Below, in pieces: positions 20 through 47,942 of a stretch of DNA of 64,000 nt. The position numbers were made by a program, and so were the translations under genes. Positions within the stretch are counted from its first letter, which is position 1. Each line of letters starts with the position of its first letter. A model generated the notes under the pieces. It was not told where the DNA came from. It was given only the letters and a program-made list of their open reading frames with translations, and searched no databases. The DNA comes from Pyrinomonas methylaliphatogenes (lineage in GTDB: Bacteria; Acidobacteriota; Blastocatellia; Pyrinomonadales; Pyrinomonadaceae): contig NZ_CBXV010000005.1 in assembly GCF_000820845.2 (NCBI RefSeq), positions 1 to 64,000 on the forward strand, given 5' to 3'.

Positions 20-714
20 GTTTCAATCCCACACTGGTCCGATTAAAACAGGCGAGTTACCGGCCGGACCGGCTAACTTCGAGATGTTTCAATCCCACAC
101 TGGTCCGATTAAAACCTCCTCGCCCGTCTCAACGCGTTCCTTCCCGAGCACGTTTCAATCCCACACTGGTCCGATTAAAACCCAATTGATGACGATGACG
201 ATGATGTAGTCGGACGCGTTTCAATCCCACACTGGTCCGATTAAAACTACGTCCAGGGCTGCGGTTTTACGCGTATCGAAACGAGTTTCAATCCCACACT
301 GGTCCGATTAAAACCGTCCAGGGCTGCGGTTTTACGCGTATCGAAACGAGTTTCAATCCCACACTGGTCCGATTAAAACTTGCGTCTGACGAGAGCGTTC
401 CCGTGCGCCTTGACGTGTTTCAATCCCACACTGGTCCGATTAAAACCATGTTTCGCGCCTACTTGCCCCCGACCGATAAAGTCGTTTCAATCCCACACTG
501 GTCCGATTAAAACTTCATCCACCTGCAGTGGCGGGTGGACGCCGGCGAGGTTTCAATCCCACACTGGTCCGATTAAAACATGTTGGTTAGGAGCGCCTAT
601 TAGGCGCTCGAGTCCGAGTTTCAATCCCACACTGGTCCGATTAAAACTCGGCCAGACGGTATGCGGTCTGAGAGCGCCCTGACTGTTTCAATCCCACACT
701 GGTCCGATTAAAAC
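20..714 (-). CRISPR. CRISPR array A, 11 intact repeats, continues past left edge
   Basis: Eleven copies of a 30 bp repeat (begins GTTTCAATCCC, ends CCGATTAAAAC on the + strand) start at 20, 86, 152, 218, 285, 350, 417, 484, 550, 618 and 685. I see no mismatch among them. Spacers are 35-38 nt. The reverse complement ends in ATTGAAAC, the usual 3' end of type I and type III repeats, so transcription is probably on the minus strand with the leader at the right (from 715). Two neighbouring spacers (248-284 and 315-349) are the same sequence apart from two extra bases at one end. No cas gene lies in the window, so the subtype cannot be fixed. ORFs drawn through the array are not genes. Confidence 0.98.
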
Positions 715-898: not shown

Positions 899-1063
899 GA
901 TGTTTGCCATATGGCTATAACCAGTCCGCGCGATCATCGGCTAGACCTCTGCTAATCTCCAGCAGAATGTTTGCCCTATGGCTATATGCCAGTCCGCCGC
1001 AGATGCAGCAGCAGTCTCAACAGCCGGACCAGATATTTGCCCTACGGCTATATGGCTAGCTCT
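899..1063. repeat. Array B: three degenerate CRISPR-pitch repeats
   Basis: Three related segments begin near 900, 967 and 1033, with cores TGTTTGCCATATGGCTATA, TGTTTGCCCTATGGCTATAT and TATTTGCCCTACGGCTATAT. Their spacing is 67 and 66 nt, the same pitch as array A, but the repeat is unrelated to GTTTCAATCCC. No ORF explains the region. I read it as a small array with its own repeat that has begun to decay. Confidence 0.6.
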
Positions 1064-1070
1064 TCGAAAT

Positions 1071-1381
1071 CTTAAATGCATTTAGGGCTGCCGTCTTCCT
1101 AGCAGCGTGATCAACTCATCGTACAGTGCCCGATCTTAATCGATGCATTTAGGGCTACCGTCCCACCCAAACTTGTACGACAGCGCGAGCCCTCAACCAC
1201 CTCGCCAGTGAACAGATCCAGCTACCGTCCCATCCACACTTGTACGACAGCCGTAAGCGGGTATCAAAGATTTTCCAGCTTCGTGGGCTGCCGTCCCACC
1301 CGCACTTGTACGATAGCATTGGGCGAGTGCCCGTCGCTAATAGCAACTACCGCCTCGCACTACCCACACTTGTACGCCAGC
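1071..1381. repeat. Array C: degenerate CRISPR-pitch repeats with a third repeat type
   Basis: Repeats with the core CCGTCCCACCC followed by CACTTGTACGACAGC occur at 1155-1184, 1222-1251 and 1288-1317, with a decayed copy ending at 1381; the steps are 67, 66 and 64 nt. A second, displaced duplication (core GCATTTAGGGCT) lies at 1078 and 1145, 67 nt apart, and a weaker relative of its flank (CTTAATCGAC) is at 869. The overlap of two repeat registers suggests two successive duplication events. The in-phase ORF with repeated LSYKCGWDGS is a by-product of the pitch, not a gene. Confidence 0.6.
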
Positions 1382-1653: not shown

Positions 1654-1821
1654 GACTGGCCCACATGAAGCCACCCTTGTCGAAGGGCTTTGAACGGACT
1701 GCGCACTAGTGCGAACAGCTTTGTCGCCACATGAAGCACCGTTGTCGAAGGACCGGCCTGCCGGCCGAAGAGCGTGACGCGAAACCATGGCTTTGTCGCC
1801 ACATGAAGCATCGTTGTCGAA
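1654..1821. repeat. Array D: three degenerate CRISPR-pitch repeats
   Basis: Copies of a 31 nt element occupy 1719-1749 and 1791-1821 (core TTTGTCGCCACATGAAGCA then CGTTGTCGAA), with a more diverged copy at 1654-1684 (CCCACATGAAGCC then CTTGTCGAA). The steps are 65 and 72 nt. This is a fourth repeat type at roughly the same pitch as array A. Region 1822-2137 beyond it holds no feature I can support. Confidence 0.5.
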
Positions 1822-2233
1822 AGACATTCGCTTCGACCCTCGCCAGCAAGTGGCCATCGCGGCTAGTTGGAGGCGAAGCCGATCAGAGCGATCCGCTTGA
1901 TGAAGCTTTGGCCCATCAAAAGGGTCCAGATGATCGCTCTTCACAGAAAGAGCTAGAAGACACTCCCAACCCGAGATGACCGCCCCCTTCCGCCGCGCTG
2001 GCGCTCTTCGCTTGGCTGTAGGACGCTCGCTGATAGATAGTGCGCCGCCCGCGCGCCATGTCGAGAGGTCGCTTGTTTCATGCACGTTGGTTGCATCGCG
2101 ATCTTACTTAGGTGCTATTTATGAAACTGCCTCTCGAGTGTTAATCGGACCAGCGTGGGATCGAAACGCGGGCGCCTTCGCCTCATGCGGCGAAAACGCC
2201 CGCGCTTTAATCGGACCAGTTGCTTTCTCCTTT

Positions 2234-2321
2234 AACTTGTGGAACTAAGGGGGCCGTGGGGGGCCCCCGTGTTGAATTTGAATTCTTTTTCATTTTGTTT
2301 TTTTTCCTTTCTTTTGTCATG
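2234..2321 (+). promoter_or_regulatory. GC hairpin plus T-rich tract, candidate leader of array E
   Basis: A 7 bp stem (2249-2255 with 2262-2268, GGGGGCC/GGCCCCC) is followed by a strongly T-rich stretch to 2320. It separates two damaged repeats (2138, 2204) from the well-preserved repeats beginning at 2322. Position and composition fit a leader for a + strand array. The hairpin with T-run also looks like an intrinsic terminator, so the role is uncertain. Confidence 0.4.
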
Positions 2322-2605
2322 GGTTTAATCGGACCAGCGTGGGATTGAAACGGCGCATGCCGACCTCCGCCAATCCGTGCATCCCACGTTTTAATCGGAC
2401 CAAAGTGGGATTGAAACTTTGCACGCGGCGCGTCGGTTTGGCCGGTGCGTCTGGTTTTAATCGGACCAGTGTGAGATTGAAACACCGTGGAACCCCGCCG
2501 GGTCGAGCGGACCCGCCCTGTTTTAAACGGACCGGTGTGGGATTGAAACCCGCAAAACTTCAACAAGCTAGGCGTGGTCGCTTGCGCCTTAATCGGACCA
2601 GGGTG

Positions 2606-2703
2606 GGACTCGAGGACAACCAGTACACGCTCGGGCGCTTCTCAAGATCCTCCCTTATCTTTTGTTTGGCAGCACTCGAGGACAACCAGTACGCGCTCGT
2701 GCG
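2606..2703. repeat. Off-register 66 nt duplication inside array E
   Basis: The segment ACTCGAGGACAACCAGTAC and about ten following bases occur at 2608 and again at 2674, 66 nt apart. The duplicated piece starts in the last bases of the repeat at 2586-2615 and extends into its spacer, so it straddles a repeat-spacer junction. The 36 nt between the copies (about 2636-2671) resemble neither copy. Removing one copy plus that insert would leave a repeat-to-repeat step of 60 nt from 2586 to the repeat now at 2712. Confidence 0.8.
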
Positions 2704-3057
2704 ATTGTCTAGCTTTAATCGGACCAGTGTGGGATTGAAAAACTGGATCGTAGTTTCATCACGCAATTTTCTTAAGTCGTTTTAATCGGACCAAAGGGGG
2801 ATTGAACCCTGGGGGAGCGGTTAAGGGGGTAACTGGTTTTAATCGGACTCAGGTCTGGAACCAAAGCGAACTAAAAAGCTCTCATGTAGGGAGTTTAACT
2901 GGTTTAATCAGACTGCTGTACAGCGTCACACATCGGCGACGTCGAGCTCGTGGTGCCATGTTTAGCTGGTTTAATCAGACTGCCGTACGGACTTTAGCAC
3001 GCCATCGCGGCATCGTGTAGGGAGCTGGTTTTAATAGGACCAGCTGGGGAAGTAGTA

Positions 3058-3609
3058 AATTGTGTTCTCTGTCTTGTATTAGGCCCATAACGCGCGCATT
3101 TTGCGTAGCCGAGTGTCATTCAGCGTTCTAGAAACTTAGACCAGCGACCGCGGTCAAAGTCATGCCAATCAATAAAGCCTCAAGGTTTCGGGGAACAATG
3201 GGAAGCGCAGCCGCTTACTGATTGAAAGACACCGACTTCGATTAACTTCTCGCGCGCCGCATCGACGATAGCGCAGTCGCTTACTGGGAGAAAATCGCGC
3301 CCAGGCTCAAGGCGTGATGGATGATTACATGTGGTTAAGGGTCAATAGCCGCTGCCAAAAACGGGCCCAAGCTCAAGACGTGATGGATGATTACGCCATC
3401 GGTGCTTGACTCTACTTCCGTTATGTTGTATGTCATACGAACCTCGTCGACTGCCGTTCGCTTCGCCGCAGGGAAGCGCAGTCAATCCGCGCGATTCATG
3501 ATAAGCGCTCTCCGTGAACGGATGGATTATGGACCATCCGGGAAATCGCGAGCAGAAAGCCCGCCAAATTAACGCCTCGTCATGAACCAGCAACAGGAGG
3601 TAACAAAAG
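3058..3609. repeat. Gene-free region with two further CRISPR-pitch duplications
   Basis: No gene is supported between array E and the small protein at 3610. Two direct duplications are visible. GCGCAG(C/T)CGCTTACTG occurs at 3205 and 3271, 66 nt apart. A 30 nt segment beginning GCCCA(G/A)GCTCAA and ending GGATGATTAC occurs at 3299-3328 and 3365-3394 with two mismatches, 66 nt apart, leaving a 36 nt insert. The second has exactly the 30/36 geometry of array A but an unrelated repeat. Confidence 0.75.
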
Positions 3610-5115: not shown

Positions 5116-5212
5116 CAAACGGTTTTGCAGCCTAAAGGCACAGCCCTCGGGAGGAAAGATCGCCGCTTCCGCTCTTTTCGACAAACGGTTTTGCAGCCTA
5201 AAGGCACAGCCC
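5116..5212. repeat. 31 bp direct duplication with 35 nt insert after the radical SAM gene
   Basis: The same 31 bases (begin CAAACGGTTTTGCAG, end AAAGGCACAGCCC) stand at 5116-5146 and 5182-5212, with no mismatch that I see. The 35 nt between them (5147-5181) resemble neither flank. The pitch is 66 nt. It begins 43 bases after the radical SAM stop codon and lies upstream of tRNA-His. Confidence 0.9.
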
Positions 5213-5658: not shown

Positions 5659-5670
5659 CTATGCATCTTG

Positions 5671-5811
5671 TGTCGCATTGCATGTGGATGTAATGCCGCC
5701 TCGGTAAGCGATGATGATGTCGAATTGCATGCGGAGGGAATGTCGCTCGGTAAATGATGATGCCGATGTGATGATGATGTCGAATTGCATGTGGAGGGAA
5801 TGTCGCTCGGT
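5671..5811. repeat. Three-copy direct repeat beside the gene remnant
   Basis: Two nearly identical blocks of about 40 bases (GATGATGATGTCGAATTGCA, then GAGGGAATGTCGCTCGGTA) lie 60 bases apart around 5710 and 5770. A more diverged copy begins near 5671 (TGTCGCATTGCATGTGGA). No gene is seen between here and tRNA-Arg. Confidence 0.75.
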
Positions 5812-5894
5812 AGCTATCGATAGACTTGGTCGCTCTGGGTTGTTGTGGAGTAGATTTTCGGCGGACTAGCCTGGTATCTGTAAAGCTATAAAAT

Positions 5895-6336: not shown

Positions 6337-7422
6337 ATGAGCACGGATAAGATGAAGCTGGCGCGCGGGCGTAGGGCGCGATGGGCAGTTCTGATCATCG
6401 CAACGGCGATCGCGCTTTACGTTTGCTGGTTAATGCTGCAACCTCTTCTGAACGTCTTAGTGTGGGCGATCGTTCTGGTCATACTCTTTCATCCGTTGCA
6501 TCGGCGAATAGTGTTGCTGACGCGGAGCTCGCACCTAGGCGCTTTGCTCTCGTGTCTGTTGGTCGTCATCACGATCCTTGCGCCGCTGACTCTTGTCACC
6601 TTCGCCGTCTTCAATGAGTTGTCTGGGGCGGCGAAGATGCTGCAGGCCAATGCCGCGACGCTGCTCGATCCCGAGTCGCCTTTCATGGGACCGCTTTGGC
6701 GATGGTTGGGCCGGTTCGTCGATGTCGAGAGTTTACGCGCCGGTTGGCTTTCCGCCGAGCGCATCCAAGCGGCGGTTCAAACTGCGGCTGGTGCGATTGC
6801 CGGGCGCACCCTTGGGGTGCTCGGCGGAGCGTTCGGCATCGTGATCGACACGTTCTTCATCATCTTCACGATGTACTATCTGTTTCGCGACGGCGAACGC
6901 ATCCTACGTGCTTTGCGTGATTTCCTGCCGCTCGATCGCGCGCAAGTGGATACCGTCTTCACGCGCGCGCGTGAAGTGATCAACGCGAGTCTCTATGGCG
7001 TATTGGTGATCGGCATCATCCAAGGCGCTTTGGGCGGACTAGCTTTCTGGGCGCTCGGGCTCCCTTCGGCGATCGTCTGGGCGGTGGTGATGGCGATCCT
7101 TTCGATGATTCCGATGGCCGGAGCCTTCATCGTTTGGGTGCCAGCGGCGCTCTTCCTCGCTGCGACGGGGCATTGGGCGAAGGCCATCATGCTCACCGCT
7201 TGGGGGGCGCTGGTCATCGGGACGGTGGACAACTTCCTTCGCCCGAAGTTGGTTGGCGAAAAGACGCGCTTGCACGAGTTGTTCATCTTCTTTTCGGTGC
7301 TCGGCGGGCTGAACCTTTTTGGCGTATTGGGGCTCGTGTTGGGACCGGTCATCTTGGCGATCACGCTCGCGCTTCTCGATATCGTTCGCGAGATCGAATC
7401 CGGGGCTGAGGCTGATCATTAA
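6337..7422 (+). CDS. AI-2E family transporter (putative permease)
   Basis: This 361-residue integral membrane protein has the layout of the AI-2E transporter (PF01594) family. A hydrophobic pair lies near the N-terminus, a soluble segment covers about residues 85-165, and hydrophobic helices follow, including GVLVIGIIQGALGGLAFWALG and the conserved DNFLRPKLVG then LFIFFSVLGGL. Members export small molecules or act as Na+/H+ antiporters, so the substrate cannot be assigned. The upstream ribosome site is poor. The stop codon (7420-7422) lies inside a 29 bp segment repeated 65 bases downstream. It stands alone between tRNA-Arg and the Nudix gene. Confidence 0.9.
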   Translation: MSTDKMKLARGRRARWAVLIIATAIALYVCWLMLQPLLNVLVWAIVLVILFHPLHRRIVLLTRSSHLGALLSCLLVVITILAPLTLVTFAVFNELSGAAKMLQANAATLLDPESPFMGPLWRWLGRFVDVESLRAGWLSAERIQAAVQTAAGAIAGRTLGVLGGAFGIVIDTFFIIFTMYYLFRDGERILRALRDFLPLDRAQVDTVFTRAREVINASLYGVLVIGIIQGALGGLAFWALGLPSAIVWAVVMAILSMIPMAGAFIVWVPAALFLAATGHWAKAIMLTAWGALVIGTVDNFLRPKLVGEKTRLHELFIFFSVLGGLNLFGVLGLVLGPVILAITLALLDIVREIESGAEADH

Positions 7423-7498
7423 AGATCGCATCGCCGAACCAAACAAAACAGAAAAGCACAGACTCTTAAGCTGAGGCTGATCATTAAAGATCGCATCG
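7405..7498. repeat. 29 bp duplication over the permease stop codon with 36 nt insert
   Basis: Bases 7405-7433, which hold the last codons and TAA of the permease gene, recur exactly at 7470-7498. The 36 nt between (7434-7469) match neither flank, and nothing after the second copy resembles them, so this is not a 65 bp tandem duplication. Repeat 29, insert 36 and pitch 65 copy the geometry of CRISPR array A. Confidence 0.95.
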
Positions 7499-8297: not shown

Positions 8298-8456
8298 ATT
8301 CCGCGCCTCATCTATGAATCAGAGTTCGTCATCGCGATTTTGGCGCGAGCAGCGCCGCCGTCTATCCGCGCTTCATCTGTGGGGCAGAGCCATTGGCGAT
8401 CATCCTATGTCGAGATCGCTACTCTCTATCCGCGCTTCATCTGTAGATCAGAGCCC
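8298..8456. repeat. Three-copy, two-insert repeat over the stop codon of the NamZ fusion gene
   Basis: A roughly 30 bp element with core CCGCGCTTCATCTGT starts at 8298, 8363 and 8427 (steps 65 and 64). The 8427 copy contains the end and stop codon (8437-8439) of the minus-strand gene; the copies at 8363 and 8298 are progressively more diverged and lie downstream of that gene. The two inserts are about 34-35 nt and unrelated to each other. It looks like a miniature CRISPR with the gene end as repeat. Nothing else is seen between the Nudix gene and this element. Confidence 0.85.
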
Positions 8457-14293: not shown

Positions 14294-15787
14294 TCAATCG
14301 ATCGGTTGTTCGACGGCGATCGGCTCGCGCTCGAAGATCAGACTGGCCAAATAGGCGATGATGAACGTCACCAGCGAACCGATCAGGACATACCATTGCC
14401 AAGAAATGGCCGTCTGCGCCCAGACGAGAATCATCACGGCGATCCCTGACACCACGCCGATGAGCGCTCCCAACGGCCCGATGCGCTTGGTGAGCGCGCC
14501 GCTGAAGAATAGCCCGAGGATCGGGCCGTTGGTGAAGGAGGCGATCGAAAGCACCGCATCGACGACGCGCTGTTCCATCGCGATCGCGGCGATGGCAACG
14601 GCGATCTGGACCACGCCCCAACCGGCCGTCAACGCGCGCGAGACGGTCAGATAGTGCGTTTCGGAACGCTGCGGCGCAAGGAGCGGCCTGTAAAAATCTG
14701 TGAGCGCCGTAGCGGCAGAGGAGTTGAGCGATGACGAGAGCGTGCTCATCGCGGCGGCGAATATCGCCGCGATCACGAGGCCGACGATTCCAACCGGCAG
14801 TTGCGTGACGATGAAATGGGGGAAGATGCGATCGGCTTTGGCGGCGACCTCCGCCGGCAGCAGGGCGGGGAAGCGATGGTAGAAGACGAAGAGCATCACG
14901 CCGATAAATAGGAAGAGGACGAACTGCGCGAAGATGATCGCTCCGCTGGCGAGCAACGCGCCGGTCGCTTGACGCGCGTTGCGGCTGCAAAGATAACGCT
15001 GGACCATCAACTGGTCCGTCCCATGCGTCGCCGTCGTCAAGAATGCGCCGCCAACCACGCCGGACCAGAACGTATAGCTGCGCGCGAGGTCGAACGTGAA
15101 ATCGAAGAGCCGAAATTTGTCGAACGCGCTGCCGACGGCGATCACTTCATGCCACCCGCCCGGAATCTGGCCCAGCAGGATCGCGGCGGCAACGAGCGCG
15201 CCGCCAATGTAGATCAAAAGCTGCACGACATCGGTCCAGATGACAGCCGCCATCCCGCCGAGATAGGTGTAGAAGATCGTCACCGCGCCGATGATCAGGA
15301 TCGAAGTCGGATCAGCCCAGCCGGTAAGCGCCACAAGGACCAGCGCCGTCGCGTAGAGTCGTATCCCGTCGGCGAGCGAGCGCGTGATCAAAAAGAGCGA
15401 AGCGGCGACGCGCTTGACCCGCCCGCCGAACCTTCGATCGAGCACCTGATAGACGGTGAAGAGTTCGCCGCGAAAATAGAGCGGGATGAAGAGCGCGACG
15501 ATGATCAGCCGCCCGATCATGTAACCGAAGACGAGTTGCAAGAAGGTGAAGTTGCCGCCCTCGCCGCGCGCATTGGCGGCGAAGGCAAAAGCCGGGACGC
15601 TGATGAAGGTCACGGTCGAAGTCTCGGTCGCGACGATCGAACCGGCGAGCGCCCACCACGGGACATCGCGGTCCGAAAGGAAATAGTCGCGTATGTCGCG
15701 CTGCTTGCGCCCGAAATACCAGCCGAAGGCTGTCACGCCGAGCATGTAAGCGACGAGGACGATCAGATCCAGCGGATGGAGCGTCAT
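14294..15787 (-). CDS. Sodium:solute symporter (SSS family), likely amino-sugar uptake
   Basis: 497 residues with about 13 predicted membrane helices, starting [21 protein letters not shown] and containing the SSS-type segment [24 protein letters not shown] typical of the SGLT/sialic acid branch. It would couple Na+ entry to solute uptake in the inner membrane. Its place between murQ and the NagZ-like gene suggests MurNAc, GlcNAc or the disaccharide as substrate; this is inference from context. The next gene starts 10 bases after its stop. Confidence 0.92.
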
Positions 15788-15841: not shown

Positions 15842-15935
15842 GCGAAGCCCGAGCGAGCTTCAATGTGCGGCGATGTCAGCGCGCTCGGGGCTGCCGACGA
15901 ATTCGATGCGAAGCCCGAACGAGCTTCGCTGTGCG
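15842..15935. repeat. 28 bp duplication with 38 nt insert just after murQ
   Basis: GCGAAGCCCGA(G/A)CGAGCTT and the bases following it occur at 15842-15869 and 15908-15935 with about three mismatches, pitch 66. The element begins seven bases beyond the murQ stop codon (15942-15944, minus strand) and lies between murQ and the symporter gene. Confidence 0.85.
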
Positions 15936-26372: not shown

Positions 26373-26653
26373 TCGCCTTGTTAAAAGTGCGAGCGGCTTG
26401 CGACTTGAAGTTTTAAGCGAGGGAGTCTCGACAGTTGCCAATAATGATGGGTTTCAGCGGCGAACTCCGACCGAAGAGTCAAGAGGAACGCTCTTTGGAA
26501 CCGATGATGAAGGAAGGGGATCGTGCCCAAACTTCTGCGGTGAGATCGGCGCGGAAAAACACAGGATCTAAAGGCGTCTATTTTGAGATCGCGTCTAAAC
26601 TTCTGCGGTGAGACAGCCGAGAGATTTCATCGTCGGCGTGAGGGAGAGATAGG
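26373..26653. repeat. Duplication AAACTTCTGCGGTGAGA in an otherwise empty region
   Basis: AAACTTCTGCGGTGAGA occurs at 26529 and 26597, 68 bases apart, just upstream of the gene at 26654. No gene or clear promoter is seen in the rest of the gap. Confidence 0.65.
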
Positions 26654-47848: not shown

Positions 47849-47942
47849 CGAATCAATGCTTCGTTCGCTTTTCGCCGTCTACCTTCATCCGCCATTCACC
47901 GTCGCGCTTGACTCCGAATCAACGCTTCGTTCGCTTTTCGCC
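47849..47942. repeat. 28 bp duplication with 38 nt insert after the efflux operon
   Basis: CGAATCAA(T/C)GCTTCGTTCG, continuing CTTTTCGCC, stands at 47849-47876 and 47915-47942 (27 of 28 identical), pitch 66. The right copy lies 10 bases after the stop of the minus-strand MFS gene; the left copy is just upstream of the M15-like gene. Confidence 0.92.

Follow-up and report, generated by a model that had tools for sequence, protein, structure and literature searches.

The window, a stretch of 64,000 nt (bases 1-64,000 of contig 5) from the genome of Pyrinomonas methylaliphatogenes K22 (a thermophile with an optimum of 65 C and a 3.79-Mb genome in 16 contigs), contains a decayed CRISPR array within which a segment has been duplicated out of register with the array. 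The question raised by this locus is which process could have duplicated a segment that runs across a repeat-spacer junction.

An off-register duplication within a decayed type I-B array

An initial sequence-only reading of this DNA had reported an off-register duplication, with copies 66 nt apart around a 36-nt insert, and both elements were recovered here as a 30-nt direct repeat (first copy ACTCGAGGACAACCAGTACACGCTCGGGCG) with 28 of 30 positions identical between copies (Table 1). The length assigned to the insert was correct; its position, given as 2636-2671, lies 2 nt short of the actual one. Immediately outside both ends of the repeat the copies mismatch, so that the unit is exactly 30/36/30. 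Repeats of the decayed array start at approximately 2322, 2388, 2454, 2520, 2586 and 2712, and the first ~22 nt of the repeat at 2586 precede the duplication, which straddles the junction of this repeat with its spacer, so that what is found at this site is not an in-register duplication of the repeat itself. The step of 126 nt from this repeat to the next is the one noted earlier, and corresponds to 66 nt plus a short 60-nt unit.

The repeat of the decayed array is the reverse complement of the repeat in the intact array at 20-714. In the crRNA orientation, the leader of the intact array ends CCTAGGGGG^GTTTTAATC (^ marks the junction), just right of 714, and the junction of the duplication reads GGGTGGG^ACTCGAGG. 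The duplication would be shifted into the repeat because the repeat itself carries GTGGGA at that place. In the intact array one spacer is present twice, at 247-283 (37 nt) and 315-349 (35 nt), with one end in common; either one prespacer was captured twice with different trimming, or the unit was duplicated and one copy lost 2 nt. The inserted segment gave no exact 20-mer match in IMG/VR and no significant match among phages, and no second copy of it was found in the K22 genome. By itself this site is insufficient to sustain the claim of an integrase acting outside its proper site, and it is a survey of the genome that carries that claim.

Table 1. Coordinates of the features discussed (window positions, unless preceded by the label of another K22 stretch or contig) and of donor matches to inserts.
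Feature	Position	Strand	Remarks
Intact type I-B array	20..714	-	30-nt repeat, 35-38-nt spacers
Older three-copy off-register unit	900..1054	+	offsets 67, 66
Three-copy neo-array of non-CRISPR sequence	1154..1317	+	offsets 67, 66; flank TTTAGG^G
36/36 site	1718..1825	+	offset 72; type I-G ruler
Decayed type I-B array holding the duplication under study	2136..3060 (about)	+	
GGGTGGG within decayed repeat, directly 5' of the duplication and proposed as a false end of a leader	2601..2607	+	G-run flank as at other 30/36 sites
First copy, 30-nt target-site duplication (decayed repeat end and start of its spacer)	2608..2637	+	
Inserted segment, spacer-sized	2638..2673	+	36 nt
Second copy, 30-nt duplication	2674..2703	+	
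Second off-register duplication in decayed array	2893..2988 (2893-2921 / 2960-2988)	+	offset 67; flank AGGGA
Duplication outside array	3291..3394	+	offset 66
Intergenic 30/36 site	5116..5212	+	copies 31/31 identical
30/36 site across stop codon of gene 6337-7422	7405..7498	+	copies 29/29 identical
Gene-end site	8361..8455	+	offset 64
Intergenic site	15842..15935	+	offset 66
Intergenic site	26519..26613	+	offset 68
Site across stop codon	39505..39590	+	offset 65
Site filling gap between two genes	47849..47942	+	offset 66
Insert at L036:864	donor L072:8296-8329		34-nt match, 97%
Insert at L080:14241	donor C6:28375-28411		37-nt match, 100%
Insert at L033:3984	donor C2:263730-263769		95%
Insert at L067:6931	donor C8:635517-635553		97%

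Direct repeats cluster at two spacings that match resident CRISPR repeats

Close direct repeats were surveyed in 41 stretches totalling 860 kb (23% of the K22 genome), with arrays excluded. Among the 109 pairs with offsets of 20-200, 98 fall at offsets 59-76, a share that is repeated in each half of the sample (43/48 and 55/61); extrapolation from these 98 yields some 430 sites in the whole genome. For pairs of 30 nt that match at 27 or more positions, 79 were found at offsets 58-77 and 2 at offsets 40-57, with another 17 spread over the 123 offsets from 78 to 200. This concentration of 30-nt pairs at offsets 58-77 excludes chance as the origin of the duplication in the decayed array. Within the window alone, direct repeats are overrepresented at offsets 64-68 and 72. 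The window also holds a 43-nt unit in three degenerate copies (5663-5812; offsets 47 and 60), fitting neither the 30/36 nor the 36/36 pattern.

Pairs were divided into class A (offsets 64-69), with a median duplication of 30 nt and a median insert of 36 nt, and class B (offsets 70-76), with medians of 36 nt for both. The length of the duplication differs between classes (p=3.5e-9) and that of the insert does not (p=0.57), the interquartile ranges of the latter being 35-38 and 34-38 nt, respectively, with canonical I-B spacers spanning 35-38 nt. The duplication lengths of the two classes equal the repeat lengths of the resident systems, 30 nt for type I-B and 36 nt for type I-G (35-36-nt repeat), and a minor group of five pairs at offsets 59-62 has median lengths of 28/33, which are those of type I-E. 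The two-class pattern is the one that two integrases must leave if their repeats differ in length and their spacers are similar. The inference of an integrase with a 30/36 ruler working outside its proper site is hence borne out by the survey, through separate predictions on duplication length, on a G-run flank resembling that of type I-B and on inserts of host DNA. More than one integrase is implicated, the 36/36 class fitting type I-G and the small 28/33 class type I-E.

K22 encodes two cas1 genes. One belongs to a type I-B locus at the end of contig 9 (cas6, cas8b/TM1802, cas7, cas5, cas3, cas4, cas1) that adjoins the 30-nt-repeat array, and the other is part of a type I-G cas4g/cas1g fusion located beside type III-A csm genes and followed by an array of period ~72. 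Type I-E is represented in K22 only by a decayed period-61 array (L037:15072-15382); the repeat in L037:15072-15410 looks like type I-E, and no cas genes were recognised among the neighbouring frames tested. A sister genome has a type I-E locus (L140) in which cas1e, cas2e, cas5, cas6e and cas7 are accompanied by a period-61 array. A 36/36-type duplication (38/36, offset 74) lies at L024:19157-19268, between the I-B cas1 and a small ORF that is probably cas2, and two offset-72 duplications (L025:14378-14480 and 14517-14622) lie 3' of cas4g/cas1g, before a presumed cas2; both adaptation operons therefore carry such insertions. Just 3' of the I-G array there is a short array-like run (TTTTCAACCTATAATGGAAGAAATAG; L025:19085-19370) with offsets of 57, 65 and 67.

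Most sites of the 30/36 class are flanked by a G-run

The I-B leader end reads AGGGGG^G, and a G-run is likewise found just outside the duplication at 30/36 sites. Counting G over four junction bases, at the better end and with a shift of at most 1, class-A junctions average 2.98 G of 4, versus 1.92+-0.11 for local controls slid by 12-150 nt (0/500 controls); the motif is short and was noticed in the data before its test, which draws its strength from the canonical leader, the class-B control and the size of the effect. The class-A enrichment is significant in each half of the sample separately. Class B shows no G-run (1.87 vs 1.98 in controls) and no other motif above control. As 36 of 46 class-A sites retain a G-run at one end, with some 10 of 46 lacking it, the site precision that had been described as lost is better described as relaxed.

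With genes called by a simple ORF picker scored on hexamers, intergenic positions hold 60 of 69 inserts and make up 17% of the DNA; an in-gene site was recorded at L067:19101. Purifying selection against insertion within genes suffices to account for this bias, and targeting is not required. Targeting of gene 3' ends was considered and discarded, the nearest gene ends being evenly 3' and 5'; the events earlier called gene-end duplications are better described as intergenic. Hairpins or cruciforms were also discarded as targets, given that secondary structure in the duplicated segments does not exceed that of the DNA around them.

Some inserts are copies of chromosomal DNA

At least four inserts reproduce K22 chromosomal DNA almost exactly, and most inserts have no match. 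The donor matches span the insert and end essentially at its edges; the four donors lie within open frames that span 191-572 codons between two stops, or up to the limit of the sampled stretch, and no flanking direct repeats were found at the three donor places examined (on contigs 6, 2 and 8). Judging from these matches, the four inserts are self-derived prespacers. When the inserts were compared with the 860-kb sample, most matches measured 14-20 nt and one, located elsewhere in the chromosome, reached 34 nt; no common sequence, either terminal or internal, was seen among the inserts.

High pair density as a probable genus-level trait

The sister genome, a same-genus uncultured Pyrinomonas MAG (contig CAKZOF010000586) of which 90 kb were sampled, shares ~75% DNA identity with K22 and aligns poorly in intergenic regions. 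Two sites appear to be empty in it. At L069:1335-1432 one copy is present in the sister, without insert, and at L077:17623-17719, where K22 presents an in-frame insertion within a gene (SEDQTRR...SEDHTRR), the segment is missing from the sister; the matches of relatives break at the same place in this gene, the protein loop there being variable in all of them. Other sites are too diverged to align, including the intergenic DNA corresponding to the site at 7405, and the decayed array has no aligned counterpart. The sister's own sites, searched back in K22, gave no match.

K22 has 11.9 solo pairs per 100 kb at offsets 59-76, and the sister genome 7.7. Three other Cas1-bearing genomes of the family yielded 3.0, 1.8 and 0 per 100 kb, and three family genomes without Cas1 yielded 0, 0 and 1.6; the few pairs in these genomes look low-complexity or like array fragments. 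The scarcity or absence of pairs in Cas1-bearing relatives indicates that Cas1 alone does not produce the pattern, and, to judge from K22 and the 90 kb covered in the sister, a high pair density seems to be a genus-level trait in Pyrinomonas.

Off-target spacer integration and alternative explanations

Taken with the survey, the duplication in the decayed array is very probably an off-target Cas1-Cas2 spacer integration, one of many such sites in K22. In Cas1-Cas2 chemistry, two staggered attacks placed one repeat length apart are followed by fill-in, which leads to exactly the combination of duplication and insert seen here. The type I-B integrase, carrying a prespacer of ~36 bp, would have taken GGGTGGG in the decayed repeat for the leader end, which properly reads AGGGGG^G, and attacked the two strands at points separated by 30 bp; repair of the gaps would then have left a 36-bp insert flanked on either side by a 30-bp copy of the target. 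The same integrase would act likewise at many intergenic sites, and the second module, type I-G, would follow the same process with a 36-bp ruler. From lengths, flanks, inserts and the scarcity of such sites in relatives we infer Cas1-Cas2 as the agent, together with the strand chemistry and the assignment of modules to sites.

Direct repeats are also the usual product of replication slippage or unequal recombination, and 17 pairs do lie at offsets 78-200; a tandem duplication whose middle part later diverged has no ruler, however, and would be expected neither to cluster at 66 and 72 nor to keep a constant 36-nt middle. It would leave unexplained both the inserts copied from distant chromosomal DNA and the lack of such a pattern in other family genomes, and we consider it extremely improbable as the source of these units. 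A small mobile element (a MITE, an IS remnant or something casposon-like) with long target duplications would explain why a duplicated target surrounds an insert, the mark of transposition, but the inserts share no common sequence and we know of no 36-nt element that makes 30- or 36-nt duplications; such an origin is hardly conceivable.

Two further readings appeal to array decay. The duplicates might be worn repeats of extinct true arrays that were formerly longer, in line with the decayed arrays at 2136-3060 and L037:15072-15382. Solo-site duplications, however, consist of unique local DNA, often across a stop codon or in a gene, and some copies are identical, hence neither old nor derived from a common repeat; the duplication studied here straddles a repeat-spacer junction, and this origin is highly improbable. 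It is likewise very unlikely that the off-target integrations are real elsewhere and that this site alone is a coincidental rearrangement. Although the array is decayed, and the 60-nt remainder calls for either a short unit or the deletion of 6 nt, the exact 30/36/30 lengths, the sharp edges and the GGG flank, along with the event at 2893-2988 in the same array, speak against coincidence.

If off-target integration by Cas1-Cas2 is accepted, the simultaneous laxity of both modules needs a common cause. One possibility, which we put forward tentatively and hold to be somewhat less than an even bet, is that in the genus Pyrinomonas the I-B, I-G and (where present) I-E systems are all relaxed through an alteration in a shared host factor or condition, making Cas1-Cas2 a genome-wide insertion mutator. 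Such a mutator would write 66- and 72-bp units, partly made of self DNA, into intergenic regions, and would found new arrays.

Relation to known systems

Natural off-target integration has hitherto been treated as very rare, and the leader fidelity of Cas1-Cas2 is an open question. K22 is a cultured type strain with a large set of events that differ in age and follow two rulers, and a sister species is at hand for comparison, so that site rules, insert origin, the birth of new arrays and genome tolerance may be read directly from its sequence; it provides a natural system for what keeps the adaptation machinery accurate, with the fidelity factor open to experiment.

The study by Nivala, Shipman and Church (Nat Microbiol, 2018) reportedly dealt with overexpressed Cas1-Cas2 in E. 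coli, plus a few natural cases. That Cas1-Cas2 can integrate off-target in vivo has been documented (Nivala et al. 2018, cited in PMC9456107 and PMC11788318), and the K22 sites resemble such integration in that a spacer-sized fragment lands outside arrays, a repeat-length target is duplicated and the sites are similar to the native locus. They differ from it in comprising ~100 natural sites in a 23% sample, with two resident modules acting with their own rulers and a trace of a third. Casposase (Cas1-solo) transposition likewise involves Cas1 chemistry and target duplication, but the K22 sites contain no casposon, their 36-nt fragments lack common ends and their duplications are longer. Target duplications of casposons measure ~14-15 nt.

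In Streptococcus type II-A systems, spacers may be acquired ectopically in mid-array, and a leader-like sequence within the array has been considered the misguiding signal (PMC7999890). The event in the decayed array shares with these cases both its mid-array location and a leader-like sequence within the array. In type II-A, nonetheless, the new spacer is in register at a repeat, whereas the K22 unit straddles the repeat-spacer junction; this off-register position would stem from the location of the false leader within the repeat. As far as the searched literature shows, the scale of the phenomenon in a natural genome, the match of duplication length to each system and the off-register event in a repeat appear to be new.
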